Of a DNA stretch of 64,000 nt, positions 1 to 7,920 are shown piece by piece; the stretch's first letter is position 1, and each line of letters opens with the position of its first letter. Position numbers and translations under genes: made by a program. Under the pieces are notes generated by a model. The model saw only the letters and a list, made by a program, of their open reading frames with translations. It was not told where the DNA came from and did not search any database. The stretch is from Candidatus Kapaibacterium sp. (GTDB lineage: Bacteria > Bacteroidota > Ignavibacteria > Kapaibacteriales > UBA2268). Location: NCBI GenBank assembly GCA_938031175.1, contig CALHGZ010000008.1, positions 186,001 to 250,000 of the forward strand. Reading direction: 5' to 3'.

Positions 1-435
1 ACTATAATTAGTTATTTCAAATTTTTCAATTGGTCCTGCATAAGCAATTCTATTGCCCTCAAAATCAAATAAATCAATATCTGTAAAAGCATCGCTATCT
101 TTTCTTAATCTTTCCAGATATTCGATCATTAGTGCTGAATCAGGCGGAAATTTAAATTTTGGGTCATCAATTAGATTAATTAAATTGACAACACGCTCAT
201 TCATAAATAAATCGAGCATATTCGATTTATTCTCAGCTATTGACTTGATATGTAGCGAATCGCTTTCTTGAATCAGCTCGGTATATTGCAGTTGGAAATA
301 AATTATTAAGATAATCATCGGCAAAAGGTAGGTAACCGATAATCGAATAATGTGCTTAATTTGAAGTCCTTTGTAGTAGCGTTCTGTCTGCAAAGTATCC
401 TTATTGACGATATCGGATTTTTTATTATCGTCCAT
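1..435 (-). CDS. Sensor histidine kinase, N-terminal part (cut by window edge)
   Basis: This is the first 145 codons of a gene that runs off the left edge; it is open throughout. After a short cytoplasmic N-terminus there is one clear membrane helix (about residues 29-47), then a region of about 95 residues expected to lie in the periplasm, reading like the start of a Cache-type sensor domain (SIAENKSNMLDLFMNERVVN, then a later FDFEGNRIAYAGP segment). From memory, this pattern is common in Cache histidine kinases, but the kinase core itself lies outside the window, so the call is an inference. It starts 13 bases after the receiver gene at 449-937 and would be the last visible gene of that operon. 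Its likely role is to sense an external signal and phosphorylate the two receiver proteins encoded upstream. The ligand cannot be told. Confidence 0.7.
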   Translation of the reverse strand, partial: MDDNKKSDIVNKDTLQTERYYKGLQIKHIIRLSVTYLLPMIILIIYFQLQYTELIQESDSLHIKSIAENKSNMLDLFMNERVVNLINLIDDPKFKFPPDSALMIEYLERLRKDSDAFTDIDLFDFEGNRIAYAGPIEKFEITNYS

Positions 436-448
436 CACTTAATCGCCT

Positions 449-937
449 TTACTGGTCTTCATCATCAAGTTTTCTCATTTCTCTTAAAATATCAATAGGA
501 CTTCTTCCTAATGCTAATTGCGATAATTTTTCGAGACGTAATTGATCAGCTTCGAATTTTTTCTTTAATCTTGCTTCATAAGCATCTTTCAATACCTCAA
601 TTAATTTTTCAAATTCGTATGGTTTAGGCAAATAGCCATAAGCCCCCAGCTTTGTACATTCAACAGCTGATTCCAAAGAACCATGACCAGTTAGCATTAT
701 TACTTCAATAAATTTATGCTCGCGTTTTAGTATTTCGAGTACCTCTTTGCCATCCATTCCGGGCATTTTTAAATCTAGCAAAGCAAGATCAAATTTCATG
801 TTTTTTGCATAGTTTATTGCATCAGTTCCATTTGTTGCTTTTGTTACTTCGAATTCACGCATTTCGAGCCTTCGAGCTATAGAATCAAGAAATTTCTCCT
901 CATCATCTACTATAAGCAATTTTATTTTTCTTTCCAT
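449..937 (-). CDS. Stand-alone response regulator (receiver domain)
   Basis: A 162-residue receiver protein. The acidic pair is D11-D12, the phospho-acceptor is D55 (LALLDLKMPG), the conserved threonine is T83 (MLTGHG) and the conserved lysine is K105 (PKPYEF). The receiver ends near residue 120 and is followed by a charged helical tail of about 40 residues with no DNA-binding or enzymatic output domain. It probably acts by protein contact or as a phospho-relay. It lies between the receiver-SLC13 fusion (22-base gap) and the sensor kinase (13-base gap) and is close in sequence to the fusion's own receiver, so both may be phosphorylated by the same kinase. The partner assignment is inferred from gene order. 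Confidence 0.9.
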   Translation of the reverse strand: MERKIKLLIVDDEEKFLDSIARRLEMREFEVTKATNGTDAINYAKNMKFDLALLDLKMPGMDGKEVLEILKREHKFIEVIMLTGHGSLESAVECTKLGAYGYLPKPYEFEKLIEVLKDAYEARLKKKFEADQLRLEKLSQLALGRSPIDILREMRKLDDEDQ

Positions 938-959: not shown

Positions 960-3053
960 TTAAATAATCTTTAATATCATCCCCCAGTATATGAATATGG
1001 TCCATATCCAGAGTACTGCAAAAGATAATAATAATACAATTGCACCGTGCTTAGCTAAATCCGCTAATGTTATTACCCTTTCGCCTGTAATAGGATTTCG
1101 TGATAATGCAAAAACAATTGCATTATTAGGAGTACCAGGTAAGAACATATGGGCAAAAGATGATGCAAATGCTGTTGCCAAGCCGACAACCCAAGGATTT
1201 GTATCAGCAATCGTTGCCATTGGTACCGTAATTGGTCCAATGGAAGCTACTGTAGCTCCATCACTCATAAAATTAGTTATAACACCAGTTATAAAGCTTG
1301 CCGCCATAGCCAATCCCTGTCCACTTTTCATAAATTCAGGCAATAATCCGACAAAGGCATCTGCTAAATATAAAGCAGCACCTGTTGAAGCTAAACCACT
1401 ACCCATCGCTGTCGCTCCTGCATAAAGGGCAACGACTTCCCATTGTATTCTAGATACATCTTTCCAGGTTAATATTCCAAATATGTTCATTAATATAATC
1501 GCTAATATCACTGGACCACCCATTCCCCACATACCTGTTTCGCCGGATAAGATCCATAGTGTTACTAACAGAATCATTATAGCTGCTGTTATGTATTCTG
1601 TTTTAGTCATCGGTCCTATTTTCTCTGAAGCTTGTACAACCATGGTTGAAATATCAACCTTTTTAACCTTCATTTTGCGATAGCAGATAATATAAAAATA
1701 AATCCCAACTACAATAGCAGCAACAGGAACAAAGGGCAAGCCCATCATTACCCATTCACCGAAAGAAGGAGCACCACCATAATCAGCTAGAATTCCGAGC
1801 ATTACAGTATTACGACCTCCTGCAGCTGGTGATCCCGGACCACCTAAATTAGCTGCGAAATTCAATGATAATACTAAAAGAATAGCTAACTTCGGGTCTT
1901 CTCTAACTCCGGCAGCTTGAGTCGATGATGCATAAACCATCATCAAAATTGGCATCATAAAAGCTACCATTGCATGTTCAGATAAAAATGAACAGGTGAT
2001 TCCAAACATTGGTAAAAATAAGAACAAATACAAACTTAAAGATTTAGTTGGTTTCAATAGTAAAACACCTATTCTTCTATCTAAACCTGTTTTATGAATG
2101 GCTATTGCAACCGCCAAGATCCCAAATATAAAAATTACCGAGTCTTTGCCATAAGCAGCAGCAACATCGTCTGGACGATATACATTAAAGAAATACATTA
2201 CCAATCCTACTAGGAGAGCTGTTAAACCTATTGGCATTGCACCGGTTGCCCAAAATAGTGCTGCTACAACCAGTAATGCAATCATTACTTTTGCCCGGAA
2301 GACTCCATCATCAACTGATAAATTAAATACTTCTTTTCCGTCTTTGTCTTTGATCGGTTTTCCCCATTCATCTACAACTAAACCAATTCGCATTTTTGAA
2401 CTATAATAATCAATAATGCTCTGGCCTTGTTTCATCTTTGCATAATCTTTATATCCAAGATTCAATTCTTTCAACTTCGCTTCTTCGGAAAGCTCGTTTA
2501 TGTTCGGAACAGATTTCTTGAAGGAAAGTATATCAACAAGCCTTTGTGGAGCGGGCAAAAGGACTATTGCTGTAAAAATTATTAATCCTATTAATAAAAA
2601 ACCTGGACGATAATTATGCACTCCCATAAACCATTTTTTAAAAGAGCCTTTCTCGACATATGGTATTTCGTGTTTTTCCATAGCATGCTTTTTTTCTCCA
2701 CGAGCACCTTCAATTGTACTTATTAATTTTTCAAGCTCAATAGGTTTTTGTAAATATGCATAGGCATCCAGTTTACCTGCTTCTACTGCAGAATCAACGT
2801 CACCATAGCCGGTAAGCATAATAACCTGTATTTCGGGCTTCAATGATTTCACTTCCTTTAAGACTTGCTCACCACTTAATCCGGGCATTTTACGATCAAG
2901 CACAATAACATCAATATCAGATTCAACGCGTATTGTCTTTAATGCATCTTTACCACTATCAAGGGTAATAACATCATAACCACGAAGCTTTAGTCGATTT
3001 GCTAAAGACTCTCTAAATTCATTTTCATCGTCAATCAGTAAAAGTTTACCCAT
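960..3053 (-). CDS. Receiver domain fused to SLC13/DASS-type sodium-anion transporter
   Basis: A 697-residue fusion. Residues 1-115 are a complete receiver: D8-D9, phospho-acceptor D53 (VLDRKMPG), T81 (MLTGYG) and K103 (LQKPIE). A linker follows, then a membrane helix near 150-165, a soluble loop, and from about residue 250 a full multi-helix transporter of the SLC13/DASS (divalent anion:sodium symporter) family. Family-like features are the GGRNTVMLGI segment in the first half and the LPGTPNNAIVFA segment in the second, matching the paired SNT-type substrate and sodium sites. Known relatives import dicarboxylates, sulfate or similar anions; the substrate here is unknown. The next genes encode a CBS protein (2-base gap upstream), a receiver and a kinase. 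I infer a transporter gated by phosphorylation. The frame is continuous, so this is not two genes joined by a misread stop. Confidence 0.92.
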   Translation of the reverse strand: MGKLLLIDDENEFRESLANRLKLRGYDVITLDSGKDALKTIRVESDIDVIVLDRKMPGLSGEQVLKEVKSLKPEIQVIMLTGYGDVDSAVEAGKLDAYAYLQKPIELEKLISTIEGARGEKKHAMEKHEIPYVEKGSFKKWFMGVHNYRPGFLLIGLIIFTAIVLLPAPQRLVDILSFKKSVPNINELSEEAKLKELNLGYKDYAKMKQGQSIIDYYSSKMRIGLVVDEWGKPIKDKDGKEVFNLSVDDGVFRAKVMIALLVVAALFWATGAMPIGLTALLVGLVMYFFNVYRPDDVAAAYGKDSVIFIFGILAVAIAIHKTGLDRRIGVLLLKPTKSLSLYLFLFLPMFGITCSFLSEHAMVAFMMPILMMVYASSTQAAGVREDPKLAILLVLSLNFAANLGGPGSPAAGGRNTVMLGILADYGGAPSFGEWVMMGLPFVPVAAIVVGIYFYIICYRKMKVKKVDISTMVVQASEKIGPMTKTEYITAAIMILLVTLWILSGETGMWGMGGPVILAIILMNIFGILTWKDVSRIQWEVVALYAGATAMGSGLASTGAALYLADAFVGLLPEFMKSGQGLAMAASFITGVITNFMSDGATVASIGPITVPMATIADTNPWVVGLATAFASSFAHMFLPGTPNNAIVFALSRNPITGERVITLADLAKHGAIVLLLSFAVLWIWTIFIYWGMILKII

Positions 3054-3055
3054 AC

Positions 3056-3628
3056 TTACTCCTTATAATTCTTAGCACATTCACACTCATTTAATAAAAA
3101 ATTTGCTACTTCTTTATATAAATCAGATAATCTCAAGATTCCTACAATTTTACTCCCATCGGTAACAAGAATTGAAAGGGTTTGCCACATTATTATTTTA
3201 TGTACAGCTTCAGCAATCGATGCTTCCTGTGAAATATTCTGAATGATGGGCATCATTATATCTTTAATATAAATATTATGAGCTTTAGCACAAATATCAA
3301 AAAAGTTGTCACGCCATAAATCATAATGGTCCATTATTGTTTCGATAAATTCTGAACTTAAATTCACTTGCGTTAATTTATCTATATCAATTAAAATATT
3401 ATATTTAGGTTCGAGTGCTTTCAAAAATGATAAATGACCTATTTTACCAATTATTTTCCCTTCATCATCTACAACAAGTACTGCTCGATATGGTTCTATT
3501 TCAGATGACCTATGTTTTTGGGCATTTTCTAATGAACGTACTGCATCTAATAGGGTTCCGCTTATATGCACAGTTGGATATGTTGATATAGGCAACATAA
3601 CATCTTTAACTTTTTTTTGATATTTCAT
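3056..3628 (-). CDS. CBS-domain pair protein
   Basis: A 190-residue soluble protein with two CBS motifs: the first at about residues 7-70 (VKDVMLPISTYPT to DDEGKIIGKIGHLSFLKAL), the second at about 120-178 (IKDIMMPIIQN to DGSKIVGILRLSDLYKEV). A helical insert of about 50 residues separates them, so the pair is less compact than usual. CBS pairs bind adenosine-containing ligands such as AMP, ATP or SAM and often control transporters. Its stop lies 2 bases before the start of the receiver-SLC13 gene, so the two are almost certainly co-translated. It is the first gene of the four-gene operon. A regulatory role on the transporter is an inference. Confidence 0.85.
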   Translation of the reverse strand: MKYQKKVKDVMLPISTYPTVHISGTLLDAVRSLENAQKHRSSEIEPYRAVLVVDDEGKIIGKIGHLSFLKALEPKYNILIDIDKLTQVNLSSEFIETIMDHYDLWRDNFFDICAKAHNIYIKDIMMPIIQNISQEASIAEAVHKIIMWQTLSILVTDGSKIVGILRLSDLYKEVANFLLNECECAKNYKE

Positions 3629-3820: not shown

Positions 3821-4258
3821 ATGAAAGTTAGAGATATTCTTAACCAAAAAGGTCCCGAAGTAATTACAATCAGTTCAAAAAAAACAATTCGCGAAGCAAT
3901 ACAAAAGCTTGTCAATAACAATATCGGTAGCCTTTTAGTCTTAGATGAAAATGCCAAATTAGCCGGCATTATAACCGAGCGAGATATTTTGCGTCAAAGT
4001 GCTATTGACCCTGAAAATTATCAAAACCTCCCTATAAACAACGTAATGACAAAAAAATTAATAATTGTCGAACCTGAAGATGACATTGAATATGTCGAAA
4101 ATACAATGACTGTTAATCGAATCCGCCATTTACCCGTTGTCAATAACAAAGTTTTAGTAGGTATAATTTCCATCGGTGATGTTGTTAAATATCAATTAAA
4201 AGAAGTCAAACAGGAAAATAAGTATTTAATGGATTACATCAGCGGGAGAGTATCTTAG
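3821..4258 (+). CDS. CBS-domain pair protein
   Basis: A 145-residue protein made almost wholly of two CBS motifs: residues 1-58 (MKVRDILNQKGPEVITI to LAGIITERDILRQ) and about 72-135 (INNVMTKKLIIVEPED to LVGIISIGDVVKYQL). This is the common compact stand-alone CBS pair, usually a nucleotide-sensing regulator with unknown partners. AGAGG lies 8 bases before the ATG. The gene is divergent from the receiver-transporter operon and ends directly against hemA, which converges on it with no spacer. A link to the neighbouring operon rests only on position and on the shared CBS theme. Confidence 0.9.
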   Translation: MKVRDILNQKGPEVITISSKKTIREAIQKLVNNNIGSLLVLDENAKLAGIITERDILRQSAIDPENYQNLPINNVMTKKLIIVEPEDDIEYVENTMTVNRIRHLPVVNNKVLVGIISIGDVVKYQLKEVKQENKYLMDYISGRVS

Positions 4259-5472: not shown

Positions 5473-7143
5473 TTATTCTTCTAAGTCTAACATCTTTTTG
5501 TACATTTGAACTCCGCCACCTAAATATGCAACATTTTTCGCTCCAATTGACTTGAAGTACTTTGCAAATTCATAAGAACGTGGTCCTTTTTGGCAAACAA
5601 AAACTAAGTGTTTATTTAAATCAATTTGACTTTTAACCTGTCTTATTTCATTAATTGGAATCCTTTTGCTAGCAAAATCAATTGGAGCCGATTCGATCTC
5701 ATCTTTTTCACGCAAATCAATAAATTCAGCATCTTCTAAATTTACAATATTATCGGGATTTAAACAGATAACATCATTTTTTTCTTGTTCGATAGCTAAA
5801 GCTGATAAAAAATTCAAGGGATTCATTGGAGATGAATGTGGAGGTGTATAGCAATGCTCAAAATTTAGCAATTCTTCGACTTTTGCAGTATTTTTTAAAT
5901 ATACAGCAAAGGCATCGCAATATCTTGTAACTTCACCTCTGCCCAAAATCTGCAATCCGAGTAATTTCATATCTTCTTTTTTATAAACCATTTGTGCGAA
6001 AAGTAATTTACTTTCAGGCATATAATCCGGTCTATCATACCAGCAACCACAAACGGAAGCACAATTTATTCCGGATAATTTTGCTTTGTTTTCTGTAATT
6101 CCGCAAGCAGCAGTTATTACACCGAAAATTTTAAGCGATACACTTCCTACGGCTCCATCAAAATGAGAATTAATTCCAGCTATATTATCAGCAGCAACTC
6201 TTCCCTGCCTATTAGCCAATGAACCAAGTGGCAAAACTTCGCTTGTCCCGGTGACTAAATCTTTAATTTCAACACAATCGCCCACAGCATATATATTCGG
6301 AATACTTGTTTGCATTTTTTCATTTACTAATATACCCCCATTTACTCCTAAATTCAAGCCTATATTTTCAGCAAGAAAAGTATTAGGCTTAACTCCAGGG
6401 CAAATAAACACATAATCCGATTGAATTGCACTTGAACCAAAATTCACTACTGGCTTACCATTTTCTTGAGTAATTGATTCAACTTTGCTATTCTTGAAAA
6501 TTTTAATTCCGTTTTCTTGAATAATTTTTTCTAAAAGAGATGCAATCAAATTATCGAAAGATTTTGGGATTATTCTGCTTCCCATTTCTATCATACTAGT
6601 TTCTATTCCCCAAAGGCTAACTAAAGCTTCGGTCAATTCGCAACCAATATAACCACCGCCAATTATCACTGCTTTCTCAATTTCACCCCTTTGTGCTTTT
6701 TGTTTGAAAAGCCTTGCATCTTCTGGCGAATGAAAATATCGCACATTATCGGATATCTCAAATGGATGTTGAATCGGAATTGATCCAGTCGCTAAAACAA
6801 GATAATCGTAGGGGAATTCAATGATTTCCTTATTTTTAGAATTAAAACCAAAAGCTTTGCAATCGTCAGGCATAATTTCAATGATCTTAGTATTCAAATG
6901 AACATTAATATTTTTAACCTTTTCGAAGTAATCAGCATCCCGAACAACTCCCCAAGGTGTTTTTGCTAAATCATAAAAATCATCTATATCGCCGGAAGCA
7001 TAAAATGGCATACCACAACTGCCATAAGAAAGAAAATCTTTTTCTTCGACAATAGTAATATCCCATTCGGGTTTTAATCTCCTAAGACGTGCTGCAGTTT
7101 TGCAACCGCCTGCCATTCCACCTATAATTAATACCTTTGGCAT
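5473..7143 (-). CDS. CoA-disulfide reductase / persulfide reductase with C-terminal rhodanese domain
   Basis: A 556-residue flavoprotein. Residues 1-440 form a class III pyridine-nucleotide-disulfide oxidoreductase: FAD-binding GGMAGGCKTAARL at the N-terminus, the single redox cysteine C43 in SYGSCGMPFYASGDI, an NAD(P)H motif (VIIGGGYIGCELTEAL) and the second FAD motif IYAVGDCVE. From about residue 465 a rhodanese domain follows with active cysteine in CQKGPRS. Characterised members with this arrangement reduce CoA-disulfide or CoA-persulfide/polysulfide and handle sulfane sulfur in the cytoplasm. The exact substrate cannot be read from sequence. It lies directly upstream of hemA, and 249 AT-rich bases precede it. 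The fusion is a known architecture. Confidence 0.9.
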   Translation of the reverse strand: MPKVLIIGGMAGGCKTAARLRRLKPEWDITIVEEKDFLSYGSCGMPFYASGDIDDFYDLAKTPWGVVRDADYFEKVKNINVHLNTKIIEIMPDDCKAFGFNSKNKEIIEFPYDYLVLATGSIPIQHPFEISDNVRYFHSPEDARLFKQKAQRGEIEKAVIIGGGYIGCELTEALVSLWGIETSMIEMGSRIIPKSFDNLIASLLEKIIQENGIKIFKNSKVESITQENGKPVVNFGSSAIQSDYVFICPGVKPNTFLAENIGLNLGVNGGILVNEKMQTSIPNIYAVGDCVEIKDLVTGTSEVLPLGSLANRQGRVAADNIAGINSHFDGAVGSVSLKIFGVITAACGITENKAKLSGINCASVCGCWYDRPDYMPESKLLFAQMVYKKEDMKLLGLQILGRGEVTRYCDAFAVYLKNTAKVEELLNFEHCYTPPHSSPMNPLNFLSALAIEQEKNDVICLNPDNIVNLEDAEFIDLREKDEIESAPIDFASKRIPINEIRQVKSQIDLNKHLVFVCQKGPRSYEFAKYFKSIGAKNVAYLGGGVQMYKKMLDLEE

Positions 7144-7392: not shown

Positions 7393-7920
7393 TTAAGAAC
7401 CAACCTGTTTTTTATATCCTTGTTTGAGGAATATGGCTGTATATGCAGATAAAACTACCGTTACAATTAATTGATTAATAAAAGGAGTTGAATGAAGTGG
7501 TTTATCATAAAGGTTGATTTGTATCAGAATAAAGAGAATAAAATAGTATAAAGCTTTACTTAATGCAATTGCAAGGAACATATTCAAAAATTTAATTTTA
7601 AGGAATTTATCCAAAAATAAAAAAAACCATACATTCACGATAAGTTCAGCTGAAATTACAAGCATTTTAGGGAAAATAGGATGTCCTGACAATAAAAAAG
7701 ACACAATTGGCAAAGTGGCAGCTAATATATAAGTATTTTCCTTCCTTGTATGTGCCAAAGATAAAATAATCATTATCCTCATCGGCTCAAATAGATAAAT
7801 AGGTACGCCAAAATTATGGGAAATTGCTGGAATCAAATAAACACAGGAAATCGCTAATATATTAAAAATTATTGCTTTAATATATTCGCGTTTTTTGATG
7901 ATTGCAGCTGACTCACTCAT
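7393..7920 (-). CDS. Small integral membrane protein, ECF transporter S-component-like
   Basis: A 175-residue protein with about five or six hydrophobic helices and very few charged residues outside the ends. The stretch PIVSFLLSGHPIFPKMLVIS followed by AELIVNVWFFLF resembles the proline-rich loop and ELATYG-like helix of ECF-type vitamin transporter S-components, which fits the size. No ATPase (EcfA) or EcfT gene is adjacent, as is usual when one shared energising module serves several S-components. A possible -7 element (TATTTTTG, minus strand, 7951-7958) lies about 31 bases upstream, but no good -33 partner is seen. The substrate is unknown, and a general uncharacterised membrane protein is the alternative. 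Confidence 0.5.
   Translation of the reverse strand: MSESAAIIKKREYIKAIIFNILAISCVYLIPAISHNFGVPIYLFEPMRIMIILSLAHTRKENTYILAATLPIVSFLLSGHPIFPKMLVISAELIVNVWFFLFLDKFLKIKFLNMFLAIALSKALYYFILFILIQINLYDKPLHSTPFINQLIVTVVLSAYTAIFLKQGYKKQVGS

Follow-up and report, generated by a model that had tools for sequence, protein, structure and literature searches.

Sulfate-breathing bacteria of two distant phyla carry a switch of the gene-control type built onto an anion transporter, probably one for sulfate. This switch, the receiver domain, is a bacterial phosphorylation switch which usually controls genes. We have found it fused to the N-terminus of a transporter with the DASS (SLC13) fold and encoded beside a histidine kinase. 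A receiver attached to a transporter next to its own kinase suggests control of uptake through phosphorylation of the transporter itself. In our estimation there is a somewhat better than even chance that the protein is a response regulator with a transporter as its output: The kinase of the operon would phosphorylate D53 and uptake would be altered. Each of the modules is known, the combination is widespread and apparently undescribed. Our literature search found no paper which brings together receiver domain, response regulator and SLC13; subscription literature and the InterPro architecture tables were outside this search, and an earlier mention is possible.

The window, that is, the whole stretch of 64,000 nucleotides that we have analyzed, corresponds to C8:186001-250000 of a 2.69-Mb genome of Candidatus Kapaibacterium sp. 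The fusion gene is found at 960..3053 on the minus strand, where the parts of the protein and the genes of its operon are also located. Open reading frame, Pfam matches and structural model agree on a single protein of 697 aa: The frame is intact, starts with ATG and has no internal stops. The receiver takes up residues 1–118 (2700..3053). Pfam places Response_reg (PF00072) at residues 5–114 with 86.5 bits, against a cut-off of 30.2, and residues 1–129 of an AlphaFold2 model match receiver structures with Z ~22 and 1.7 Å. The initial annotation had proposed a receiver with all its key residues joined to an SLC13/DASS transporter, and both parts of this description are borne out. The acidic pair D8-D9 (3027-3032), the phospho-acceptor D53 (2895-2897), T81 (2811-2813) and K103 (2745-2747) are at the positions given there, which supplies the acidic residues, acceptor Asp, Thr/Ser and Lys characteristic of the family. 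A degenerate receiver is thus ruled out. We have not detected any recognized output domain in the fusion, be it DNA-binding, enzymatic or similar: Apart from the receiver, Pfam matches above cut-off are limited to Na_sulph_symp and its relative CitMHS.

The second half of the protein is a complete transporter. Na_sulph_symp (PF00939) is found at residues 254–694, with 117.8 bits against a cut-off of 27. The AlphaFold2 model of the fusion, built from a 34-row alignment (mean pLDDT 87, pTM 0.76), matches DASS structures over residues 136–697, which includes the first transmembrane helix of the fold. These structures include NaCT (Z 39.8), human NaS1 (Z 37.2) and VcINDY (Z 34), and Pho90 is also among the matches. 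The NCBIfam cut-off for TIGR00785, the DASS family of sodium-coupled anion symporters, is missed (163.4 versus 198.6 bits). On the basis of Pfam and structure we classify the transporter as DASS-fold and leave it outside the TIGR00785 subfamily. When compared with VcINDY, NaS1 and NaCT, the fold is equally complete, but the fusion differs in its substrate motifs, in an extra loop and in the N-terminal receiver.

The receiver is connected to the membrane by a short linker, residues 119–146 (2616..2699), which in the model extends helix alpha-5 (107–126) towards the membrane. A hinge at residues 128–134, between the end of alpha-5 and TM1, is poorly predicted, with low pLDDT, so the model is silent on contacts between receiver and transporter. 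The first transmembrane helix, residues 147–173 (2535..2615), is visible by hydropathy, and the fold alignment to NaS1 and VcINDY starts at 136–143. It is followed by an inserted TM1-TM2 loop of about 75 residues (174–248, 2310..2534), found by alignment and in the model, which is missing from the shorter fusions described below. The loop is probably periplasmic, judging from the N-in topology of the family. The DASS core comprises residues 249–697 (963..2309), as defined by Pfam and fold match. Both paired substrate-site segments were expected from the initial annotation. The two hairpin-tip segments are indeed present at their positions, but their SNT signatures, the canonical paired substrate and sodium motifs, are replaced. 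When aligned with VcINDY, S358-E359-H360 (1974..1982) stands for the first SNT motif and S597-D598-G599 (1257..1265) for the second one. These replacements are a stable feature of this DASS type: SEH is retained in 28 of 29 rows and SDG in all 29. The fusion would carry out cation-coupled transport of a divalent anion, probably sulfate to judge from the genes of its hosts and the distribution of its clade.

The fusion is part of an operon which continues beyond the window. The order of genes is CBS pair (190 aa), fusion, receiver (162 aa), dCache_1 kinase (568 aa), another CBS pair (178 aa) and an unfused DASS transporter (504 aa), with intergenic gaps of 2, 22 and about 10 bp. The first gene, a CBS-pair protein by Pfam at 3056..3628, is separated by 2 bp from the fusion and occupies the same position in 10 of the 10 fusion loci of Kapabacteria. 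The free-standing receiver is at 449..937 (Pfam); in the receiver tree it belongs to the clade which accompanies the fusion in both phyla. The dCache_1-HisKA-HATPase_c histidine kinase starts at 1..435, and the remainder lies outside the window (L007:10731-12437). No DNA-binding regulator is found in the operon: Its only regulator genes are the fusion and the single-domain receiver.

A few other genes in the vicinity should be mentioned. Another CBS-pair protein, divergently oriented, adjoins the operon at 3821-4258. A 175-aa membrane protein at 7393-7920 has no match in Pfam or NCBIfam. The gene at 5473-7143 codes for a pyridine nucleotide-disulfide oxidoreductase with a C-terminal rhodanese domain, of the CoA-disulfide-reductase type, which is probably ordinary. 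The same genome also contains a second locus with fusion, receiver and Cache kinase, in this case with the short DASS type (L008:5171-8985, which corresponds to C7:191170-194985); the 5' start of its fusion is lost in an N gap. A PPDK_N/PEP-utilizer protein, a TauE/SafE protein or a CitMHS_2 transporter is found near the operon in three Kapabacteria genomes (L036:2269-3300, L036:3-2207, L038:10763-13405, L039:677-6428).

We have detected the fusion at 32 separate loci, 10 in Kapabacteria and 22 in Desulfobacterota (the 33 entries of our fusion table reduce to 32, since L093 and L158 are identical). A full-length homologue with 74% identity is found in another genus of the same family. Other Kapabacteria genera have a shorter type of about 590 aa, without the inserted loop, and the order CBS, fusion, receiver, Cache kinase is common to the 74% homologue and to the short-type loci. 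The fusion type of the window is also present, with whole-length matches, in at least 22 of the 291 genomes in the class of Desulfatitalea alkaliphila (Desulfobacterota), a cultured isolate (strain M08but) which itself carries the full fusion at L157:8022-10097. D8, D9, D53, T81 and K103 are kept in every fusion row, 32 of 32 loci. Loss of D53, which in most fusion homologues would have refuted the proposal of the initial annotation, is not found at any of them.

Nor do we find the other pattern considered there, homologues split in two genes with a consistent frameshift in the window. A frameshift or misassembly joining neighboring genes might be suspected, since many Desulfobacterota clusters have separate receiver and DASS genes next to each other. 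Independent assemblies nevertheless show a continuous frame at 32 loci, some of them on contigs as large as 3.9 and 5.2 Mb, and the unfused homologues form separate clades. The homologues thus refute such an artefact, and the probability we would leave for it is practically nil. Some frames of 700 aa at first matched the DASS part only. On inspection, these frames, such as those from G520, G563, G499 and G495, turned out to be unfused open reading frames of 537–544 aa, except for the one from G490, which is a real fusion. A mobile or viral origin has also been discarded: A scan of viral contigs gave nothing beyond unrelated receivers and one partial match to the transporter.

A Cache histidine kinase adjoins the fusion at 29 of the 32 loci, in reply to the question of neighboring kinases raised in the initial annotation, and these kinases belong to a specific clade. 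At two of the remaining loci, L037 and L135, the contig breaks off. The only true exception is L178, where the roughly 8 kb to each side of the fusion (L178:8008-10053) contain no Cache kinase.

The same modules are also found separately. In unfused members of this DASS type, which have about 550 aa, only the receiver and the linker are missing. Clusters in Desulfobacterota contain the modules as separate genes, as REC-CBS fusions and as REC-Cache-HK fusions. This mixture of separate and variously fused modules is a Rosetta-stone pattern. The REC-CBS proteins (about 300 aa) and the REC-Cache-HK proteins are found in L187, L189, L193, L165, L089 and others; the same receiver family is in this way joined to partners of three kinds.

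Phylogenetic trees show how these parts are related. The fused receivers form a single clade, apart from the free receivers which accompany them, with SH-aLRT 95 in a large tree and 100/99 in a careful one. The free partner receivers from the two phyla also cluster with one another (SH-aLRT 98). In the kinase tree, a single clade of 25 rows (SH-aLRT 100) unites the kinases beside fusions, and kinases from unfused DASS clusters fall outside it. Direct adjacency to a full-length fusion is found in 21 of these rows; in the other four the fusion is interrupted by a gap or by the end of a contig (L008, L159), lies one gene away (L039) or is divergent (L169). The fused proteins are split over two DASS clades in the transporter tree, each with unfused relatives. 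With one kinase clade and one fused-receiver clade on two DASS subfamilies, we conclude that receiver and kinase were kept and the transporter was exchanged at least once. As to which of the Kapabacteria types had its transporter replaced, both the long-type clade (p 0.47) and the Kapabacteria clade (p 0.33) are compatible with an AU test on the receiver tree.

The reading best supported by these data appears to be that phosphorylation gates transport directly. An effect on the transporter is favored because the acceptor site is strictly kept, its sole covalent partner is a transporter and the operon has no other output, and also because receiver and kinase have persisted through a transporter exchange. 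The existence of unfused members of the same DASS type, without any fused receiver, counts against it. The proposed sequence of events is as follows. The Cache kinase would sense a ligand outside the cytoplasm, which is probably sulfate or some similar anion, and autophosphorylate. The phosphate would pass to D53 of the cytoplasmic N-terminal receiver on the putative sulfate transporter, and also to the free receiver; that this is the cognate kinase is suggested by its adjacency and by the co-inherited kinase clade. A change in the receiver would then be transmitted through the extended alpha-5 helix and the short linker to TM1 and might alter the rate of anion uptake. By analogy with the SPX domain of Pho90, our guess would be that uptake is restrained in one of the two states of the receiver.

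Signals might also flow in the opposite direction, with occupancy of or flux through the DASS domain altering the gain or loss of phosphate by the receiver and feeding back to the kinase, the free receiver being the true output. The altered SEH/SDG motifs and the conserved free receiver alongside the fusion in both phyla would fit such a transceptor. There is also a precedent for transporter domains in two-component signalling in the SLC5-STAC-kinase fusions CbrA and CrbS (PMC9100948, PMC7096432). However, the DASS core and its hairpins are well conserved, the receiver stays while the DASS subfamily changes, the host lives by sulfate import, and the free receiver likewise has no output domain. 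We regard a transceptor as unlikely.

CheY1/CheY2 are a known phosphate sink system, with two receivers per kinase. The operon has this same layout and the linker is flexible, so the fused receiver could act as a sink, or as a docking site which keeps kinase and free receiver at the transporter, with transport unchanged. Yet a sink has no need of attachment to a transporter, and attachment has been kept through transporter exchange across two phyla, which makes this possibility quite improbable. Gating of uptake by the fused receiver remains our preferred reading.

The distribution of the fusion in relation to sulfate respiration points to its substrate. The genome of the window has sat, aprBA, qmoC and dsrAB in one cluster, and sulfate reduction has been described for its family, UBA2268 of the Kapabacteria (PMC10591310). 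Of 60 relatives, nine have dsrA; the fusion is present in seven of these nine genomes and in none of the other 51. Fisher tests, both of which ignore phylogeny, give p 9e-8 for the 60 relatives and 4e-6 within the family. This association, together with the sat-aprBA-qmoC-dsrAB cluster in the window genome, makes sulfate a likely substrate: The fused transporter likely carries an anion, namely sulfate. The nearest solved folds include the Na/sulfate transporter NaS1. The fusion is not found in every sulfate reducer of the family, as shown by the two dsrA genomes without it (G020 and G025). G025 has a cluster of receivers and histidine kinases beside a SulP-like transporter gene, named by eye (L041:1-6000), and a cluster in a similar style is found at L042:1-1400. 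The Kapabacterium G028, which has no dsrA, contains a lone unfused short-type DASS gene (L073:8457 region) with no adjoining receiver or kinase. It looks like the receiver was lost here together with sulfate reduction.

Some of the genomes may correspond to well-studied species. G607 may be Desulfobacterium autotrophicum, G471 Desulfococcus oleovorans Hxd3 and G489 Desulfobacula toluolica Tol2, identifications which serve as leads only; if the last one is right, the G489 fusion could be TOL2_19410. The TOL2_19410 protein has been detected in the membrane protein fraction, and the DASS genes HRM2_38230 and HRM2_38300 of D. autotrophicum are reported to reach high expression when sulfate is low (PMC5840216). 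Sulfate respiration begins with the uptake of sulfate, which has a strong effect on the rate of the process, and the same survey of sulfate transporters in sulfate reducers nowhere mentions response regulators (PMC5840216).

Several known systems resemble this fusion in part. The yeast transporters Pho87, Pho90 and Pho91 also have a soluble cytoplasmic regulatory domain on the N-terminus of a DASS-fold transporter. In their case it is an SPX domain, which responds to inositol pyrophosphates, whereas the N-terminal domain of the fusion is a receiver, open to phosphorylation, which comes with a histidine kinase of its own. Removal of the N-terminal SPX domain from Pho87 or Pho90 raises uptake up to eightfold, which indicates that SPX restrains transport (PMC7381174). 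CbrA and CrbS also combine a transporter and a two-component domain in one polypeptide, but they join the transporter to a kinase, on the sensor side and with transcription as output. Our fusion has instead a DASS fold, a receiver on the output side and no kinase in the same protein. Single-domain response regulators such as CheY, which act by contact, likewise have a receiver without DNA-binding or enzymatic output; unlike them, the fused receiver is covalently attached to its presumed target.

Another parallel is found in Desulfobacteraceae, for which a paper of 2025 describes clusters that combine DASS transporters with two-component systems, Cache kinases and CBS proteins (PMC11887813). 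The types of parts are the same as in the window operon, and the hosts are also sulfate reducers. The main text does not mention the words fused, fusion or receiver. In those clusters, WalR-type regulators are proposed to act on promoters. No such DNA-binding regulator is found in the window operon, where the receiver is part of the transporter. It might be argued that here too activated regulators act on promoters, the fused receiver being incidental. This is the published model for related clusters (PMC11887813), and NtrC-type DNA-binding regulators are found near some fusion loci in Desulfobacterota, so that transcriptional control may coexist. Nevertheless, the regulators of the Kapabacteria operon are limited to a single-domain receiver and the fusion, the small receivers of such clusters mostly consist of a single domain, and the fused receiver has strictly retained its acceptor site. 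We consider control by promoters alone very unlikely; the fusion points to the transporter as output.

To our knowledge, there is no established mechanism for post-translational control of sulfate uptake in sulfate reducers. A receiver attached to a transporter offers a direct handle on the question of whether histidine-aspartate phosphorylation serves to gate a secondary transporter in bacteria. The published clusters of DASS, two-component and CBS genes should also be read differently, with the transporter as the likely target of their many single-domain receivers. A broader proposal, to which we give barely better than even chances, is that these proteins are a class of response regulators with an integral-membrane secondary transporter as output. 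A kinase-receiver-CBS cassette present in two phyla would directly control sulfate import and could be moved between transporter subfamilies, and the lone receivers of unfused clusters would dock on their transporters in the same way.
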